A stretch of DNA of 64,000 nt from an uncultured Flavobacteriales bacterium (lineage in GTDB: Bacteria; Bacteroidota; Bacteroidia; Flavobacteriales_F; PHOS-HE28): the NCBI GenBank assembly GCA_937872175.1, contig CALMPI010000002.1, forward strand, positions 62,001 to 126,000, in the 5' to 3' direction. The notes beneath the pieces were generated by a model. That model was not told the DNA's origin. It saw nothing but the letters and a program-made list of their open reading frames with translations, and searched no databases. A program made the position numbers and the translations under genes. Every line of letters begins with the position of its first letter. Position 1 is the first letter of the stretch. This document shows positions 38,122-50,424 of the stretch, one piece after another.

Positions 38122-41100
38122 TCAGCGGAGCGCCAGGCCTCCCTTGGCCGGTACCCGCTCGGGAACGAAGACCCGCAACGGCCCATTGTTGACGGCCACC
38201 ACGAAGGCCTGACCACCGCCGCCGGTGCGCACGCGGACCACCTGGCGCACATCGCCCCGTGCCGTGAACCCGCTGCCGGCGACCGGAACAGGGTCGAAGC
38301 CGCGGTGTCCGTTCCCCAGGAGCACCACGCCTGTACTGCCGTCATAGCGGGATGTTTCCACCTCGGTGCCGTACAGGTTGCCACCGCCCACCATGTCCAG
38401 GTGCCCGTCGCCGTTGAGGTCCACCACAACCACGGAACGCAGGGGGCCGGCCTGGGCCGCGTTCGGGAGGGGCTCCGGGGAGAAGCGACCGCCCTCGTTC
38501 CACCACACCAGGCTGCGGAACTCCGTGGCACTTACGTGCAACGCCTCATCCAGCTTCGGTCCATAGAGCTTGTGCACATCCGCCTCCGCGAACGACTTGA
38601 ACGTGGGGAACTTCTGCTTCAGGAAGGGCATCTGTTCGGAGGAGCACTCGCGGCCACGCACCGGGAAACACGTGCCGTCCGCCCCGTGCTTGGCCAGCAC
38701 GATGTCGTTGGTGCCGGTGCCGTCCAGGTCGGCCATGTACAGTTCCAGTGGCTTCTCCTTGCTCGGATGGAACTTGTTGTTGAGCCCGATGTTCCCCGTC
38801 ACCAGGTCCTGATCGCCATCCCCGTCCAGGTCGGCCACCGTGATGCCCTGCCACCAGCCCGTCAAGGTGCTGTCGGTCCATGCTGCGCGCGCAAAGCCGG
38901 TTCCCGTGTTCCGGTAGGCCAGCACGGGCATCCACTCACCCGTGACGACCAGGTCCTTCCGCCCATCCGCGTCCAGGTCGGCCAACGCTGCGCCGGTGAC
39001 CATGCCCACGCTCGTCAGCGGAGCGCACCAGCCGGCGGTGACGTCACTGAACCGGCCGCCGTCGTTGCGCAGCAGCACACTTCGGGGAGCGGAAGGGTAG
39101 GCGCCCGGTACGTTGCGGCCGCCCACGAAGAGGTCCATATCGCCATCGCCGTCCACGTCATCCGCCACCACCACCTGGGTGGGCCAGGGCATTGGAGGCA
39201 TCGCATCGACGGCCTCCGTGAAGCGGCCACGACCGTCGTTCACGTAGAGCCTGTCCTGGTAGCGCGCGCTGGGTGCGGACCATTCGGTGCTGCCGGCGGC
39301 CGTGTACAGATCAAGGTCGCCATCCCCGTCAGCGTCGAACAGGCAGGCCCCGATGATCTCCTGATCACTGTGCGCGGACCACGGCTGGGTGGTCGCCGGG
39401 GCGAAGCGGGTACCGCTCCCCTGCAGAAGGAGCTGCCCGGGGTTTCCTGTGGCGGCCCCGAGGAACAGGTCGTCCAGACCGTCCCCGTTCACATCGCCGG
39501 CCACCAGGGCAGGGCCATGGGTCGATTGGCGGTGGGGCAGCAGGCTCTCGGCCCGGAAGTCGTCGAAGCTGTTCTCGGTGTGACCGATCCCGGGCACGGT
39601 GCGTGAGCTCACGTCCGTGAACCAGGTGGTCGGGCGCGAGCGTGCGCGCCGTTCGTGAGGTAGCGCCTCGTAGGCCACCGCGATCCGCTGATCGGCCTTC
39701 GGACCATCGATGCGCGACCATGTCCCATCGGGCCAGTGCAGCACCACCGAATCAACGCCACCGTCGCCAAGACCGAAGTGGATCAAGGGCTCCACGCTGC
39801 TCTGGAAACCACGGGCATGGACCAGTTCGGCATGCTGCATGGTGCCCCCGGCGTACAGCAGGGCCCTGGTGCCCACCGCGAAGGGGTTTCCCTTCGGCCC
39901 GCGCAACGCCAGTTGCAGATAGTGCGAGCCATCCCGTTGCCGGCTCCGGTTCTCCACCACCTTCATCGGACCGTTCACATCCACCACCACCAGGTCCATG
40001 TCGCCGTCGGCATCCAGGTCGGCCACGCTGGCAGCGGTGCTGACGCCGGCATGCTGGTAGCCCCACTCGGCCATGGCCTTGGAGAAGGTGAGGTCCCCTT
40101 GGTTGCGGAACACATGGTTCTGCATCGGCGAGAAGGGAAGGAGCGGGGCGATGTCCTCGTAGCGGATCGGCCGGTCCTTGCGCTCCTCCTTGATACGCGC
40201 CACGCTGCGCTTCAGGTCGTTGTTCGTGATGTCGCGCCAGACACCGTTCGATACGAACAGGTCCTTCCATCCGTCGTTGTCCAGGTCCACGAACAGGGGG
40301 GCCCAGCTCCAGTCCGTGCGGTCCACCCCGGCCAGGTGGCCGATCTCGCTGAAGCTCCCGTCACCGTTGTTCAGGTGCAGCTGGTTCGCCATGTACTGGG
40401 CGTGCCATCCGATGCTGGTCATCCTGTCGAAGTCCTCCGGGCGCATGCTCGCCATGTTCTGCTTGCTTCGCCCGTGGTCCGGCGGGGTCATGTCCAGCAC
40501 GCAGAGGTCCGGATGCCCGTCGTTGTTCATGTCGGCCCGGTCCACGCCCATGCTGTAGTAGCTCACATGGCCCAGCCGGGAGCGCACCTCGTCGATGAAG
40601 CGCCCATCAGGCTGCTGGATGTACAGCATGTCCGGCTGCACGAAGTCGTTCGCCACGTGGATGTCCGGCCGGTCATCGCCGTTCACGTCGCCGATCGCCG
40701 CCCCCAGGCTCCACGTGTGACTGAGCAGCCCGGCCGCGACCGTGTTGTCCGTGAAGCGCCCGTTGCCGTCGTTGATGAAGAGCCGGTTGCTGAAGAGGGA
40801 GCTGCCCGCAGGCACGATCACCTCCACATTGGCCGATGCCTCGAAGTCCATGCGGTGCCCGAGCAGGAACAGATCGAGGTCACCGTCCACGTCAATGTCG
40901 TGGAAGTAGGCCATGATGCCGTGGCCGTCCGGGTTCAAACCCAGTTCCCGGCCGCGTTCCTCGAAGGTGCCGTCGCCCCTGTTGAGGTAGACCCGGTCCC
41001 TCAGCCGTTCGGGATCGTTCGTCGGGCCGCCGCAGACCACGTAGAGGTCGAGGTGCCCATTGCCGTCGATGTCCGCCATCGAGGTGCCCATCGGCCAGAT

Positions 41101-41487
41101 GTCCTCCTGTGCGATGCCGGCCTTGGTGGTGACGTCCTCGAAGTGCAGTCCGCCCCTGTTCCGGTACAGCCTCACACCGTCGCGCGAGGAGACGACGAAC
41201 ACCTCGGGCAACCCATCTCCGTCCACGTCGCCGGTGGCCACCCCTCCGGTCAGATACAGATAGCGGAACCGATAGTAGTTGATCTCGTCGGTCTCCACGA
41301 ATGCATTGCGGAAGGGCATCCCGATGGCCTCGCCGCTATGCTGCACGAGCAGGGGAGAGCGCACCGCCGAGGTGTCACCGGTGGTGGTCGGGGACGGTCC
41401 AAGGCCCGGCCCTGTGCACCCGGAGAGCGCGAGCAGCACCGCCACGACCGGTACCGAGGGCCCCATGATGTACGGGTTCCGGAGCAT
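38122..41487 (-). CDS. VCBS/FG-GAP repeat ASPIC-UnbV lipoprotein (paralog 2)
   Basis: A 1121-residue paralog of the protein at 33778-37146, with the same order: lipoprotein signal (LLALSGC), FG-GAP block, ASPIC/UnbV domain (VGTRALLYAGGTMQHAELVHARGFQ ... FGLGDGGVDSVVLHWPDG, around residues 520-620), second FG-GAP block. Fourteen calcium-loop motifs are again visible (for example DIDGNGHLDLYV, DVNGDGLDDLFL, DADGDGDLDLYT). Long stretches are near-identical to paralog 1, such as LNNKFHPSKEKPLE and CFPVRGRECSSEQMPFLK, so they arose by duplication. ATG at 41487 is preferred; an in-frame ATG at 41526 would add 13 residues. Confidence 0.88.
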   Translation of the reverse strand: MLRNPYIMGPSVPVVAVLLALSGCTGPGLGPSPTTTGDTSAVRSPLLVQHSGEAIGMPFRNAFVETDEINYYRFRYLYLTGGVATGDVDGDGLPEVFVVSSRDGVRLYRNRGGLHFEDVTTKAGIAQEDIWPMGTSMADIDGNGHLDLYVVCGGPTNDPERLRDRVYLNRGDGTFEERGRELGLNPDGHGIMAYFHDIDVDGDLDLFLLGHRMDFEASANVEVIVPAGSSLFSNRLFINDGNGRFTDNTVAAGLLSHTWSLGAAIGDVNGDDRPDIHVANDFVQPDMLYIQQPDGRFIDEVRSRLGHVSYYSMGVDRADMNNDGHPDLCVLDMTPPDHGRSKQNMASMRPEDFDRMTSIGWHAQYMANQLHLNNGDGSFSEIGHLAGVDRTDWSWAPLFVDLDNDGWKDLFVSNGVWRDITNNDLKRSVARIKEERKDRPIRYEDIAPLLPFSPMQNHVFRNQGDLTFSKAMAEWGYQHAGVSTAASVADLDADGDMDLVVVDVNGPMKVVENRSRQRDGSHYLQLALRGPKGNPFAVGTRALLYAGGTMQHAELVHARGFQSSVEPLIHFGLGDGGVDSVVLHWPDGTWSRIDGPKADQRIAVAYEALPHERRARSRPTTWFTDVSSRTVPGIGHTENSFDDFRAESLLPHRQSTHGPALVAGDVNGDGLDDLFLGAATGNPGQLLLQGSGTRFAPATTQPWSAHSDQEIIGACLFDADGDGDLDLYTAAGSTEWSAPSARYQDRLYVNDGRGRFTEAVDAMPPMPWPTQVVVADDVDGDGDMDLFVGGRNVPGAYPSAPRSVLLRNDGGRFSDVTAGWCAPLTSVGMVTGAALADLDADGRKDLVVTGEWMPVLAYRNTGTGFARAAWTDSTLTGWWQGITVADLDGDGDQDLVTGNIGLNNKFHPSKEKPLELYMADLDGTGTNDIVLAKHGADGTCFPVRGRECSSEQMPFLKQKFPTFKSFAEADVHKLYGPKLDEALHVSATEFRSLVWWNEGGRFSPEPLPNAAQAGPLRSVVVVDLNGDGHLDMVGGGNLYGTEVETSRYDGSTGVVLLGNGHRGFDPVPVAGSGFTARGDVRQVVRVRTGGGGQAFVVAVNNGPLRVFVPERVPAKGGLALR

Positions 41488-41538
41488 GCTCTTCCGTGCG
41501 GACCGCAGTGGACGGTGTGCGGACAACGGCGGTCGCGT

Positions 41539-42189: not shown

Positions 42190-42247
42190 GCCCGGAAAAG
42201 CCTGAACTTCGCGCAGGGCGCGCCGAACAAGGGCGGTCGAATGTAGT

Positions 42248-42260: not shown

Positions 42261-45200
42261 GTGCTCAGGAACATCCGTGCGACACTCCTTGCCCTGCTCG
42301 CCCTTTCGGCGACCCCTGTCGCGTACGGCCAGTTCTACAACGGGGCCCAGCAGGAGTTCGGGAAGAACCGCATCCAGCACGAGGAGTTCCTGTGGCAGTA
42401 CTACCGCTTCGACCGGTTGGAGACCTACTTCTACAAGGGAGGCCGTGATCTGGCGCGGTACGTGGCCCTCAGTGGCCACAAGCACCTGAAGGACCTCGAG
42501 AAGCAGCTCGACATCGCCCTCGACGAACGCGTGCAGTTCGTGGTGTACAACTCGCTGTCCGACTTCCGCCAGAGCAACATCGGGATCACCGGCGATGAGC
42601 AGTACAACATCGGCGGGGTCACCCGCATCGTGGGCACCAAGGTCTTCGTGTACTTCGAGGGCGACCACGCGCGGCTCGATCAGCAGGTGCGAAGCGGGGT
42701 GGCCCAGGTGATGCTGGACCAGATGATGTTCGGGGGGAACTGGCGCGAGGTGCTGAAGAACAGCACGCTGATGAACCTGCCCGAGTGGTACACCAAGGGG
42801 CTGGTGGCCCATGTGGCCGGGCCCATGGACGCGATGCAGGCCAGCCGCCTGCGCGATGGCATCCTCGCGGGCCGCTTCGACCGCTTCAACCGGCTGGAAG
42901 GGGAGGACGCGGTGCTCATGGGCCAGGCGATCTGGTCCTATGTGGCCGATGTGTACGGTCAGAGCGTCATCCCCAACATCCTGTACATGACCCGGGTGAG
43001 CCGCAACGTGGAGAGCGGGTTCATGTACGTGCTCGGCGTGCCCTTGAAGAACCTCGCCACGGATTGCCTGGGCCATTACAAGGAGCGCTTCGCCAAAGAG
43101 GAGCAGCTGCGTGAGGCGGTCACCCTGGACGAGCTGCCCATCCGCCATCGCAAACGCAGCACCTGGTCACAGTTCAAGCTGAGCCCCAACGGCCGCTACG
43201 CCGCCTGGGTCACCAATGAACTGGGCCAGTACAAGGTCTTCATCCGGGACCTTTCCGAGCAGCGCACCTGGCGGATCGCCAAGGGTGAGAAGAAGCTGAA
43301 CCGCATCGTGGACCGCAGCTATCCGGTGCTGGCCTGGCACCCCGGAAGCCGGGCCCTCAGCTACGCCGTGGAACGCAAGGGTGAGCTCTACCTGAAGACC
43401 TACACCCTGGACGATCGCAAGACCAGCGTTCGGCCGGTGTTCATGTTGGAGAAGCTGCTCTCCATGGCCTACTCGCCCGATGGCCAGAACATGGTGTTCA
43501 GCGCCGTTCGGGAAGGCCGCACCGACCTCTACCTGTATTACCTCATCGGCAACCGGCAGGAGCAGCTCACCAGCGATCAGTTCGACGACCTGGAGCCGTC
43601 GTTCACGCTGGACGGCGAGGGCATCCTGTTCGCCAGCGACCGCACGGACGACACCCTGCGTAGCCAGCCGGCCAACGCCGAGGTGGCCCTGGTGAACGGG
43701 CACAAGGACATCTTCCTGTACGACCTGGCCGGCCGCTCCGCTCTCCTGCGCCGCCTCACCAGCACCTCGTATGCCGACGAATCGGCCCCGATGCCGCTGG
43801 ACAGCGTGGCGTTCACCTACCTGGGTGATGCGTCAGGCCTGCGGGACCGGTACAGGGTGCGCTATGACAGTGTGGTGAGCCATGTGGACACCACCATCCA
43901 CTACCGCTATTTCGCCGTGAACGAGCGGATCACCAGGGGGCGTCGCTCGGTGCTGGAGCACGATGTGCACGCCCGGAACGGGCGCCTCGCGGAACTGGTG
44001 TTCGAGAACGGTCGCTATCATCTGCGCATGGGCCGCACCGCTCCTGCCGGCGCAGGTGTCGGCGACGCTTCGCCCAGCGGCCCAGGCCCCGACCGCCGCG
44101 AACCACTCGGTGAGCAGAACGACCCCCTCGACCAGGTGGTGAAGGTGGCTCCCCGTGTGCCCCGGCCCGCAGGCGAAGTGGTGAACGTGGACAATTATCA
44201 GTTCAGCGACGAGAACGCACCACCGCCTGACCGGCCCATGGAGGCACCACCTCCCACCTTGGCGACCGTCCCGTCCGCCGCTGCGCCCGGCGACACCCTC
44301 GCCGACCGTCCCCTGGTCTTCCCCGAGCAGCGCAACTACCATGTGAACTTCGCCACCGACGCGGTGCTCACCCAGGTGGATAACAGCTACAACGCCGCCT
44401 TCTATCAGCCCTTCACCGGCGCCCAGAACCTGAACCCCGGTCTCAGCGGCATGATCCAGATGGGCATCAGCGACCTGTTCGAGGACCACAAGATCATCGG
44501 CGGCTTCCGCCTTGCGCTGGACCTCAACAACAACGACTACTTCCTCACCTACATCAACCTGAAACGACGGCTGGACAAGCGGTTCACCGTGCAGCGCCAG
44601 ACCCTGCAGGGCGTATCCCGCTTCGGTGTGGTGAAGGTGCAGACCCACCTGGCCAACTATCAGGTGAGCTGGCCCTTCAGTGAGCTGGCGAGCGTGCGCG
44701 CCTCCCTTCTGTACCGGCACGACCGATACGTGCTGCAGAGCACCGACCTGCTCAGCCTGCAGGAGCCCAACTTCTACGACCAGATGGCCGGCGGCAAACT
44801 GGAATACGTCTATGACAGTTCGGTGCCGCGCGGGCTCAACCTCTACACCGGCTGGAAGTTCAAGGTCTTTGGCGAGTACTACATCCAGCCGGACGAGGGC
44901 AACAGCGACATGCAGGTGCTCGGCCTGGACGCCCGCCATTCCCTGCGGATCCACCGTGATCTGGTGCTGGTGAACCGCCTTGCGGGCGCCACCAGCCTGG
45001 GCAGCCGCCGCATCATCCATTTCCTGGGCGGGGTGGACAACTGGCTCTTCCCCCGGGTGGACAACAGCATCCCCATCGACTTCGACCAGAACTACTTCTA
45101 CCAGAGCAACGCCACACCGATGCGGGGCTTCTACTTCAATGCGCGCAACGGCACCTCCTTCGGTGTGCTGAACACCGAGCTGCGCTGGCCGATCTTCCGC

Positions 45201-45512
45201 TACCTCGTCAACCGGCCCATGCGGTCCGACTTCCTGCAGAACTTCCAGATCGTGGCGTTCGGTGATGTGGGTGTCGCCTGGACCGGGCCCGATCCCTACA
45301 GTGAGGAGAACACCTTCAACCAGCAGGTCATCAACAGCAATCCGCTGCTCATCACCATCAAGAACCAGCGTGAGCCCATCGTGGGCAGCTACGGGGCCGG
45401 CCTCCGCGCGCGCCTCCTCGGCTACTTCGTGCGCGCCGACTGGGCCTGGGGGGTGGACGATGGCCGCGTGCTCGACCCCGTGTTCCACCTCTCCCTCAGC
45501 CTCGACATCTGA
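42261..45512 (+). CDS. TolB-like propeller protein with Omp85-like C-terminal barrel
   Basis: A 1083-residue outer-membrane protein starting at GTG. A signal peptide (LALLALSATPVAYGQ) is followed by a peptidase-MA-like domain (about residues 25-280) containing NLPEWYTKGLVAHVAG, but without a visible HExxH, so it is probably inactive. A WD40/TolB-like propeller follows (about 290-560; ISPNGRYAAW-type repeats such as SPNGRYAAWVTN and SPDGQNMVFSA). A proline-rich linker leads to a C-terminal barrel (about 690-1083) with PMRGFYFNARNGT, matching the (V/I/M)RGF/Y loop-6 motif of Omp85 proteins. It might fold or secrete surface proteins; role inferred. The TSUP gene starts 3 nt later. Confidence 0.8.
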   Translation: MLRNIRATLLALLALSATPVAYGQFYNGAQQEFGKNRIQHEEFLWQYYRFDRLETYFYKGGRDLARYVALSGHKHLKDLEKQLDIALDERVQFVVYNSLSDFRQSNIGITGDEQYNIGGVTRIVGTKVFVYFEGDHARLDQQVRSGVAQVMLDQMMFGGNWREVLKNSTLMNLPEWYTKGLVAHVAGPMDAMQASRLRDGILAGRFDRFNRLEGEDAVLMGQAIWSYVADVYGQSVIPNILYMTRVSRNVESGFMYVLGVPLKNLATDCLGHYKERFAKEEQLREAVTLDELPIRHRKRSTWSQFKLSPNGRYAAWVTNELGQYKVFIRDLSEQRTWRIAKGEKKLNRIVDRSYPVLAWHPGSRALSYAVERKGELYLKTYTLDDRKTSVRPVFMLEKLLSMAYSPDGQNMVFSAVREGRTDLYLYYLIGNRQEQLTSDQFDDLEPSFTLDGEGILFASDRTDDTLRSQPANAEVALVNGHKDIFLYDLAGRSALLRRLTSTSYADESAPMPLDSVAFTYLGDASGLRDRYRVRYDSVVSHVDTTIHYRYFAVNERITRGRRSVLEHDVHARNGRLAELVFENGRYHLRMGRTAPAGAGVGDASPSGPGPDRREPLGEQNDPLDQVVKVAPRVPRPAGEVVNVDNYQFSDENAPPPDRPMEAPPPTLATVPSAAAPGDTLADRPLVFPEQRNYHVNFATDAVLTQVDNSYNAAFYQPFTGAQNLNPGLSGMIQMGISDLFEDHKIIGGFRLALDLNNNDYFLTYINLKRRLDKRFTVQRQTLQGVSRFGVVKVQTHLANYQVSWPFSELASVRASLLYRHDRYVLQSTDLLSLQEPNFYDQMAGGKLEYVYDSSVPRGLNLYTGWKFKVFGEYYIQPDEGNSDMQVLGLDARHSLRIHRDLVLVNRLAGATSLGSRRIIHFLGGVDNWLFPRVDNSIPIDFDQNYFYQSNATPMRGFYFNARNGTSFGVLNTELRWPIFRYLVNRPMRSDFLQNFQIVAFGDVGVAWTGPDPYSEENTFNQQVINSNPLLITIKNQREPIVGSYGAGLRARLLGYFVRADWAWGVDDGRVLDPVFHLSLSLDI

Positions 45513-45515
45513 GCC

Positions 45516-45884
45516 ATGTCCGCCACCGCTGTTGCGTTGCTCCTGCTCATCGGCCTGCTGGCCGGACTGCTGAGCGGCTTCGTCGGCGTGGGCGGCGGCA
45601 TCATCATGGTGCCAGCCCTCGTATGGCTCATGGGCTATGGCCAGCATCAGGCCCAGGGCACCAGCCTGGCGGTACTGGTATTGCCTGTGGTGGCCGTCGC
45701 CGCCTGGAATTACCACCGCGAGCACCCGCTCGACCTGCGGGCCGTGGCCATCATCGCCGGTGCCTTCGTGCTGGGCGGATACGTGGGCAGCCGCATGGCC
45801 CTCAGCATCCCAGCCGATGCGGTCAAGCGTGTGTTCGGCCTTGTGATGCTCGTGGTCGCCATCAAGCTGATCTTCGGCAAGTGA
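45516..45884 (+). CDS. Half-size TSUP (TauE/SafE) permease
   Basis: A 122-residue membrane protein equal to one half of a TauE/SafE permease: signature GLLSGFVGVGGGIIMVPALVWLMGY at residues 16-40 (quoted in part: GFVGVGGGIIMVPALV), then three further hydrophobic segments. Full members are about 250 residues with two such repeats, so this one would need to dimerise. It begins 3 nt after the large barrel gene and its TGA overlaps the GTG of the amidohydrolase by 4 nt. Substrate unknown. Confidence 0.85.
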   Translation: MSATAVALLLLIGLLAGLLSGFVGVGGGIIMVPALVWLMGYGQHQAQGTSLAVLVLPVVAVAAWNYHREHPLDLRAVAIIAGAFVLGGYVGSRMALSIPADAVKRVFGLVMLVVAIKLIFGK

Positions 45885-47089
45885 TCGCGCGCATCCGGAA
45901 GGAACTGGAGGCCCTGGGGGACCGGCCCGTGCAGTGGCGCCGCTGGATGCATCAGCACCCCGAGCTGTCCTTCCACGAGGAGGGCACTGCTGCTCACGTG
46001 GCCTCCGTGCTCCGCGAGGAGGGCATCCCTGTGCGCGAGGGGCTCGCCCGGCATCCGGACCGGTCCGGCGGCACGGGCCTCATCGCGCTCGTCACCGGGT
46101 CCCGCTCCCCGTCCGACCGCTGTTTCGCCCTGCGCGCCGACATGGATGCACTGCCGATCCAGGAGGTGGGCAAAGCCGGCTATTGTTCGCTCAACCCGGG
46201 CGTGATGCATGCCTGCGGCCATGACGCGCACACCGCCATGGTGCTTGCAGCCGGCATCGCCCTGCACCGCATGCGCGAGGCTTGGAGCGGCACGGTGATG
46301 CTGGTGTTCCAGCCCGGCGAGGAGAAGGAACCCGGCGGGGCGAGCCTCTTCGTGAAGGAGGGTGCGCTGACCGATCCCCCCCCATCGGGCATCCTGGGCC
46401 AGCATGTCACCCCGGAACTGGCCTCGGGCAAGCTCGGTTTCCGCAGCGGTCCCTTCATGGCCGCCGCCGACGAGCTCTACCTCATCGTGCGCGGGCGTGG
46501 GGGCCATGCCTCCAAGCGCGCCGAGCTCGTGGACCCGATCCTCATCGCCTCGCGGATGCTGCCCGTGCTGTACGAGGCCGCCGAACGCGCGAAGCCTTCG
46601 GGCGAGCCCATGGTGATGAGCTTCGGTCGATTCATCGCCCACGGCGCCACCAACATCGTTCCGGATGAGGCGCGCCTCGATGGCACCCTTCGCACCTTCA
46701 ACGAGGACCTGCGCGCCCTGCTCCATGACCTGCTGCCGCGCGTGTGCGCGGGCGTGGCACAGGACATGGGCGGTGAGGCGGAGCTGCGGATCGTGAAGGG
46801 TTCGCCGGTGGTGAAGAACGACCCCGCGCTCACCGCCCGCATGCGCCGCGTGGCCGAGGACCTGGTGGGTGCGGAGAACGTGGTGGACATGGACATCCGC
46901 ATGGGCGCCGAGGACTTCGCCTACTACACGCACGTGATGCCGGGCTGCTTCTTCCGCCTGGGTACCGGCAACCCCGCGAAGCCCGGCACGCAGAGCGGCC
47001 TGCACACCGCCGCCTTCGACATCGATGAGGATGCGCTGCCGATCGGTGCGGCGATGATGATGGCGGGGGCGCTGAACGAGCTGCAATGA
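45881..47089 (+). CDS. M20-family amidohydrolase (aminoacylase-like)
   Basis: A 402-residue metallopeptidase-family hydrolase starting at GTG, overlapping the TSUP stop (GTGA). Metal and catalytic motifs: RWMHQHPELSFHE, RADMDALPI, HACGHDAH (Cys112, His114), FQPGEEKEPGG (Glu147, Glu148) and MGAEDFAYY. GRGGHASKR is the dimerisation-domain signature. It belongs to the IAA-amino-acid hydrolase / N-acyl-amino-acid aminohydrolase branch, which removes acyl groups from amino acids. The actual substrate cannot be told. The following lipoprotein gene overlaps by 4 nt. Confidence 0.93.
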   Translation: MIARIRKELEALGDRPVQWRRWMHQHPELSFHEEGTAAHVASVLREEGIPVREGLARHPDRSGGTGLIALVTGSRSPSDRCFALRADMDALPIQEVGKAGYCSLNPGVMHACGHDAHTAMVLAAGIALHRMREAWSGTVMLVFQPGEEKEPGGASLFVKEGALTDPPPSGILGQHVTPELASGKLGFRSGPFMAAADELYLIVRGRGGHASKRAELVDPILIASRMLPVLYEAAERAKPSGEPMVMSFGRFIAHGATNIVPDEARLDGTLRTFNEDLRALLHDLLPRVCAGVAQDMGGEAELRIVKGSPVVKNDPALTARMRRVAEDLVGAENVVDMDIRMGAEDFAYYTHVMPGCFFRLGTGNPAKPGTQSGLHTAAFDIDEDALPIGAAMMMAGALNELQ

Positions 47090-47679: not shown

Positions 47680-48015
47680 TCAGCGTTGCACGATATCGTC
47701 CAGCTCGATCACCGGCCTTCCGTTCTTCTCGTGCACGGTCATCTCCACCTGGTGCGTGGAGCGTCCGCCGGCGGTGTAGAGGTCCACATGTACCGAGAAC
47801 GCACCGGGCCAGTTGCGGACGGCGACCGCTTTCAGGTTGTTCCACACGGTCGGGGGCGGCATCACCAACGGTGCGCCGATCTCCTCCACCGCGTCCGCCA
47901 TCGCATCGGCTGAGAGCCGCACGCCATCGGTCGCCTCCTCGAGGTCCACGAAGCGCCGCTCCACCAGCAGCTTCATCACGTGCTTCGCGACGAGGGTGAG
48001 GTCGTTGGGATCCAT
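47680..48015 (-). CDS. Small unrecognised cytoplasmic protein
   Basis: A 111-residue protein without signal peptide or membrane segments. The N-terminal half is helical and acidic (ERRFVDLEEATDGVRLSADAMADAVEE), the C-terminal half strand-like (FSVHVDLYTAGGRSTHQVEMTVHEKNGRPVIELDDI). The layout resembles small alpha+beta domains seen in immunity or stress proteins, but I do not recognise the family. It is separated from recQ by a palindrome and probably shares its direction of transcription. Confidence 0.65.
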   Translation of the reverse strand: MDPNDLTLVAKHVMKLLVERRFVDLEEATDGVRLSADAMADAVEEIGAPLVMPPPTVWNNLKAVAVRNWPGAFSVHVDLYTAGGRSTHQVEMTVHEKNGRPVIELDDIVQR

Positions 48016-48065: not shown

Positions 48066-50246
<2,181 letters not shown>

Positions 50247-50424
50247 CACGGTATGCGTACGCTTCTATGGCCGGGTTCCGGCGCTCTCTAAGGTATGGCA
50301 ACTTTCCGGATCCCGCGCTGCAGGTCCGCGGCGTGCCGCTTCAACGCGGGACCGGGGTCCCCTGTTGCCCGTCCGGCTGTTGAAGGATCGCCGCGCCTCC
50401 GCGAAGTCCCCTCACCCCCCCGGC

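Follow-up and report, generated by a model that had tools for sequence, protein, structure and literature searches.

A degenerate gluzincin-like domain, a TolB-like propeller and an Omp85-type barrel predicted in one polypeptide of an uncultured Flavobacteriales bacterium

We identified, in a 64,000-nucleotide stretch of DNA from an uncultured Flavobacteriales bacterium (hereafter, the window), a gene whose product is predicted to combine in one chain a gluzincin (peptidase-MA) head, a TolB-like beta-propeller and an Omp85 barrel. Judging from the aligned sequences, the zinc site of the head is lost in the class to which the host belongs and is active-looking in relatives from other classes of the same phylum. 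We tentatively propose that the protein is an outer-membrane-tethered periplasmic factor that would bind clients in envelope protein assembly or quality control.

Domain architecture of the protein

The open reading frame at 42261-45512 (+) is real; it encodes 1083 aa, with a GTG start at 42261 and a stop at 45512 (Table 1). On the evidence of the sequence, this GTG is a good start, and it is followed by the signal-like MLRNIRATLLALLALSATPVAYGQ; an alternative ATG at 42241 runs directly into a stop. The full-length AlphaFold2 model, built on 61 aligned sequences, has a mean pLDDT of 79.9 and a pTM of 0.77, with ordered parts at about residues 46-282, 301-592 and 697-1083 and with pLDDT below 50 at 597-639 and 646-683. 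The alignment comprises this protein and 60 loci hand-picked for spread from 74, five loci without a 900-aa frame and the fragment L061 having been dropped from the 80 named; a first alignment set left out L046 (split frame) and L054 (short).

Table 1. Features of the gene, its product and the adjoining genes (positions in the window)
Feature	Positions	Strand	Evidence
Gluzincin-like / TolB-propeller / Omp85-barrel protein, 1083 aa, GTG start	42261..45512	+	Sequence, homologues, AlphaFold2
Signal-peptide-like N-terminus, residues 1-23, without lipobox Cys	42261..42329	+	By eye
Peptidase-MA (gluzincin) domain, residues 24-285, catalytically degenerate	42330..43115	+	Model, structure matches, HExxH relatives
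Place of lost HExxH: S145-G146-V-A-Q149 (HELVH in relatives)	42693..42707	+	Alignment
Place of lost third zinc ligand: K179 (relatives: Glu of E-G pair)	42795..42797	+	Alignment
Six-bladed TolB-like beta-propeller, residues 286-592	43116..44036	+	Profiles, model; blades counted by eye from strand list
Disordered linker, residues 593-689, mostly pLDDT <50	44037..44327	+	AlphaFold2
Conserved linker segment VNVDNYQF, residues 641-648	44181..44204	+	Family pattern [IV]D[IL]xNYxF
Omp85-type barrel, residues 690-1083; 16 strands from 729 and preceding strand 697-707	44328..45509	+	AlphaFold2, structure matches
Loop-6 motif MRGF, residues 954-957	45120..45131	+	Alignment, model
Half-size TSUP/TauE permease, 122 aa	45516..45884	+	PF01925 4e-24
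M20 amidohydrolase/peptidase, 402 aa, GTG start	45881..47089	+	PF01546 3e-38
Divergent metallo-beta-lactamase-fold (MBL) hydrolase, GloB-like, 216 aa	41539..42189	-	Profile searches

The sequence evidence for the barrel is weak, and structure prediction was therefore needed. Pfam Omp85 (PF01103) does not match the protein at E 1, NCBIfam Omp85 matches weakly over residues 954-1066 (E 1.7e-4), NF047779 reaches 21.2 of 200 bits, and hhalign gives weak values for the barrel against a BamA alignment (E 0.056) and a TamL-like alignment (E 0.0032). Among 20 family members, one is matched by the Omp85 profile at E 0.1; an orthologue from the same genus, L155, scores 42.2 bits with Pfam Omp85, for which the cut-off is 24. 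In the AlphaFold2 model, 16 barrel strands can be counted from residue 729, and the long loop that carries MRGF lies between strands 11 and 12, so that the predicted topology is that of Omp85, as the first-pass annotation had supposed from the loop-6 motif; the outcome named there as a refutation, a barrel of another topology, did not arise. The barrel aligns (VIA-align) with the BamA proteins of D. radiodurans (Z 24.3, 318 aa, 4.2 A) and F. johnsoniae (Z 23.2, 299 aa, 4.0 A). Residues R955, G956 and F957 of the motif, together with E973, R975, D1002, G1004 and W1007, are invariant in all 61 aligned rows, and we take them to correspond to the loop-6 arginine of BamA and its acidic partners. 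A similar E-x-R and D/E-x-G-x-x-W pattern occurs in Omp85 proteins from this genome and from related ones; the separate Omp85 proteins of this genome carry E-x-R and D-x-G-x-x-W. No POTRA domain was found among the structure matches listed, and the ordered parts of residues 46-592 are predicted to adopt the gluzincin and propeller folds.

For the middle of the protein, which had been read as a propeller from its repeats, profiles and model agree with that reading. PD40 propeller repeats (E 1.6e-9) are the only Pfam match in the whole protein, NCBIfam TolB (TIGR02800) matches residues 357-462 with 58.2 bits, against a curated cut-off of 343.15, and sequence searches of the PDB returned essentially TolB and otherwise unrelated weak matches. 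Residues 286-573 of the model align with TolB at Z 23.9 (238 aa, 2.5 A). A true TolB above the curated cut-off is present in the five f38 genomes searched (G076, G088, G106, G117 and G227) but not in any of 24 further genomes searched in the phylum, five f27 genomes included. Since these five f27 genomes are without TolB as well, a simple replacement of TolB by the family is rejected for these 29 genomes.

Loss of the zinc site in the host class

Modelled alone, the head has a pLDDT of 82.6, and its best Foldseek matches are collagenase peptidase domains (E 2.1e-4). VIA-align places it closest to collagenase peptidase units (Z 15.9, 231 aa, 3.6 A), followed by M1 aminopeptidases (Z 13-14), and the Peptidase_MA_2 profile matches 5 of 20 family members at E 0.1. 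Thus, the peptidase-MA-like N-terminus without HExxH that was noticed at first pass is upheld: the aligned zinc and catalytic positions are occupied by S145, G146, Q149 and K179. With neither HExxH nor the third-ligand glutamate apparent in its sequence, the protein is not classed as a peptidase.

Homologues from other classes of the phylum present a different picture at this site, with HExxH in 20/20 (20 loci, 14 families), as HELVH or near variants (HELEH, HELIH, HELLH) followed by P-x-W-x-x-E-G. All eight of those scanned pass the Peptidase_MA_2 cut-off and one passes that of Omp85. These relatives mark the head as an enzyme by descent. The H-E-H set is found at the aligned site in none of the 128 class-level rows (61 from the fold alignment, 47 more from the first set and 20 more from the last; a genome may be represented twice, under different names). 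Single zinc ligands survive sporadically in class rows, for example E179 in 4/61, and P174, W176 and G180 are invariant in all 61 class sequences. The sole HE..H string among the 61, in L082, lies at its residue 137, outside the catalytic site, and was discarded.

In a tree of 64 rows, built on 1138 columns with the catalytic columns included, the HExxH label switches twice, once at L187 and once on the branch that leads to 32 class rows (SH-aLRT 100), so that 32 of the 33 rows lacking the motif lie on one side of that branch. Because HExxH occurs in the two other parts of the tree, loss is simpler than gain, with the root placed as we infer it. L187 (genome G329), which lies outside the class, would represent a second, independent loss of HExxH, in which the Glu of P-x-W-x-x-E-G has been retained. 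The motifs GHELVHxFQ and RHExVHVFT are found in more distant paralogues, class family f25 being among their sources. Those with GHE[LM]VH[AS]FQ in the head (L189, L190, L193 and L194 of f25; L188; L202-L204) have a different C-terminus, several of their frames ending in PGW, and form a second active-looking branch.

A conserved linker segment and the spread of the family

Within the disordered linker, residues 641-648 follow the family pattern [IV]D[IL]xNYxF. In relaxed form the pattern is present in 48/61 linkers of the class and in 13 of 20 linkers of the HExxH relatives (seven lack it), and in shuffled linkers of each set it occurs 0.14 times on average and at most twice; as the sequences counted are those that the pattern was derived from, the count expresses conservation and is not an independent test. 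The beta-signal consensus of outer-membrane proteins ends in hydrophobic-x-F. The linker segment ends likewise and resembles the lid of PlpD, which is itself similar to a beta-signal and pairs with the first barrel strand, according to the part of the PlpD paper that describes it (PMC11116518). A BamP loop at the BamA seam is described for F. johnsoniae in part of the BAM literature. By analogy, our segment probably docks at the barrel seam; it is modelled at low confidence, so that docking is not visible in the model.

Homologues, mostly full length and mostly in one copy, are present in 54 of 58 related genomes, this one included, and in 21 of 24 genera. When genomes were sampled evenly across the phylum, 220/296 were matched, or about 193/296 as a corrected estimate, some of whose loci were read, after removal of 25 f38 matches (E between 1e-8 and 1e-12) and of G142 and G292, whose matches are weak; two f38 loci were read, and their frames of 441-455 aa match the propeller only. 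The family thus looks like an old, widespread envelope factor, and one that is not indispensable in the phylum, since most genomes of class family f27 lack the gene. Genome G031 has near-equal partial copies at C82:1625-4162 and C86:1291-3828, either a duplicate or an assembly artefact.

Proposed role

Omp85 proteins build outer membranes. From the head's fold and the Omp85 barrel joined to it, we infer that the protein handles envelope proteins at the outer membrane, and since both ends of such a barrel are periplasmic, the extra domains should be periplasmic too, as is reported for PlpD (PMC11116518). We envisage an apparently POTRA-less protein of the WD40-Omp85 type: the signal peptide would export it, the 16-strand barrel would set it in the outer membrane, and the gluzincin domain and the TolB-like propeller would form its periplasmic head. 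Descended from a zinc metallopeptidase, the head may have been kept as a binding module after its zinc site was lost in the host class. It would most likely grip unfolded or mis-sorted envelope proteins and could present them to its own barrel or to the BAM machinery, and the [IV]D[IL]xNYxF segment probably pairs with the barrel seam as a built-in beta-signal that would gate or stabilise the barrel.

It is possible, if somewhat doubtful, that the barrel serves as an anchor only, holding a periplasmic (pseudo)peptidase/propeller scaffold at the membrane as PlpD tethers its lipase, and inserts nothing. The enzymatic descent of the head and the lack of POTRA domains among the structure matches would both fit, and the authors of the PlpD study, in the part that treats its structure, place the enzyme domain in the periplasm and report that a lateral gate is not apparent (PMC11116518). 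Against such an anchor could be set the invariance of loop 6, E973 and D1002. However, a barrel descended from Omp85 could retain these residues even as a mere anchor, as might be the case by analogy with PlpD, so that the invariance does not discriminate.

A broader reading seems to us unlikely. Here, POTRA-less outer-membrane machines across the phylum would use a metallopeptidase-propeller head in place of POTRA and the linker as a beta-signal-like plug of the seam, acting as a protease-coupled assembly or quality-control insertase in most classes and converted once, in the host class, to a pseudo-protease chaperone-insertase.

Gene neighbours and other possible roles

The TSUP gene starts 3 bp downstream of the barrel gene and is overlapped by the M20 gene by 4 bp, an arrangement that suggests one transcript for the three. 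At 93 loci, neighbours were identified by tblastn and counted where the flank sufficed, a crude clustering of open reading frames having missed overlapping genes: MBL adjoins the family at 53/83 loci, TSUP at 54/91 and M20 at 49/79, all three are found at 28/72 and at least one of them at 64/72. In a further 20 class loci, the counts are 16/20 for MBL and 1/20 each for TSUP and M20, and none of the three lies beside the HExxH relatives at 20 loci. The MBL pairing is therefore deep in the class and the TSUP-M20 operon shallower, confined to part of it, and none of these neighbours accompanies the active-looking form with HExxH. The coupling to a TSUP permease and an amidohydrolase claimed at first pass is conserved only to that extent. 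No known BAM or Lol component was seen among the neighbours. Further away in the window lie a large FG-GAP/UnbV-ASPIC repeat protein with 11 FG-GAP_3 stretches (38122-41526, -) and a small DUF7668 protein (47680-48015, -) adjoining a RecQ helicase (48066-50249).

The adjoining genes could point to a lipid or small-molecule envelope function exerted with TSUP, M20 and MBL, for example in the turnover of N-acyl amino-acid lipids. The frequency of at least one neighbour, and of MBL in the further class loci, would suit this role, but we consider it improbable, given the rarity of TSUP and M20 in those further loci and the absence of all three beside the HExxH relatives; moreover, the neighbours may merely share a promoter region.

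There is likewise little probability that the protein is a surface assembly or export machine, perhaps allied with the type IX secretion system (T9SS), whose barrel would carry the head, or clients other than it, to the cell surface: some Omp85/TpsB barrels do translocate proteins, FhaC being an example given in the corresponding part of PMC4104836, and SprA is encoded in this genome and in 40/44 genomes examined, but SprA is also present in 17/17 genomes without the family, the neighbours examined include no recognised T9SS gene, and PlpD, formerly thought to secrete its domain, does not, according to the part of PMC11116518 concerned. Being near-universal among the 44 genomes, SprA cannot discriminate, and the co-occurrence with T9SS suggested as a check was set aside as uninformative; no T9SS link can be claimed.

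Relation to known systems

The fusion is not new in kind. In the section that they devote to it, Heinz and Lithgow (2014; PMC4104836) named a WD40-Omp85 subfamily, with a TolB-like propeller and an Omp85 barrel, and called it reminiscent of a BamA-BamB fusion; the introductory part of the 2024 PlpD paper lists a WD40-like subfamily among those that are not well characterised (PMC11116518). The latter paper, where it defines Omp85/TpsB proteins, includes at least one POTRA domain, which the definition in the former does not require (PMC11116518; PMC4104836). In the literature searched, mostly other than subscription papers, the term WD40-Omp85 was found only in PMC4104836, and nothing was found there that describes the peptidase head, the loss of its zinc site or the linker segment. 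Thus, the contrast between kept and lost zinc sites, the spread over about 193/296 genomes and the conserved linker segment were not found in print.

A metallopeptidase head that looks dead in one class but active across most of the phylum provides a testable question for the WD40 subfamily, namely whether an outer-membrane barrel can be equipped with a protease, or a pseudo-protease, of its own to handle clients. Furthermore, seam docking of the linker segment would extend the idea of a beta-signal-like lid from PlpD to a second Omp85 subfamily.

Among known systems, the described WD40-Omp85 architecture matches our protein in its N-terminal propeller most like TolB, its Omp85 barrel and, as far as the structure matches show, the non-POTRA arrangement, whereas section 10 of PMC4104836 is without a peptidase-MA head, the fate of a zinc site or a linker motif. 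That paper, in the part on inheritance, limits vertical inheritance to BamA, TamA and the lipoprotein type, whereas this family occurs in most genomes of the class, mostly in one copy. PlpD, a patatin-type Omp85 protein, likewise has an enzyme-fold domain before the barrel and a beta-signal-like segment near it; unlike in our protein, as far as the structural part of the PlpD paper goes, that domain is a patatin and active rather than a dead gluzincin, a POTRA domain is present and there is no propeller (PMC11116518). BamA together with BamB offers a 16-strand barrel with the loop-6 motif and a propeller near the barrel; however, E. coli BamA is described, in the part of PMC13067283 consulted, with POTRA domains and a separate BamB, whereas here one chain, in which no POTRA was seen, carries a TolB-like propeller. 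The subunits named in two papers on BAM of Bacteroidota are different ones; a propeller does occur in BamI of Bacteroides and Porphyromonas, but that protein is described there as a separate extracellular subunit. TolB shares the propeller fold (Z 23.9) and differs in sequence (58.2 bits against a cut-off of 343) and in that our propeller is fused to other domains. Finally, the gluzincins (collagenases and M1 aminopeptidases) share the fold of the head (Z 13-16), whereas in our protein their zinc ligands and catalytic Glu are replaced.
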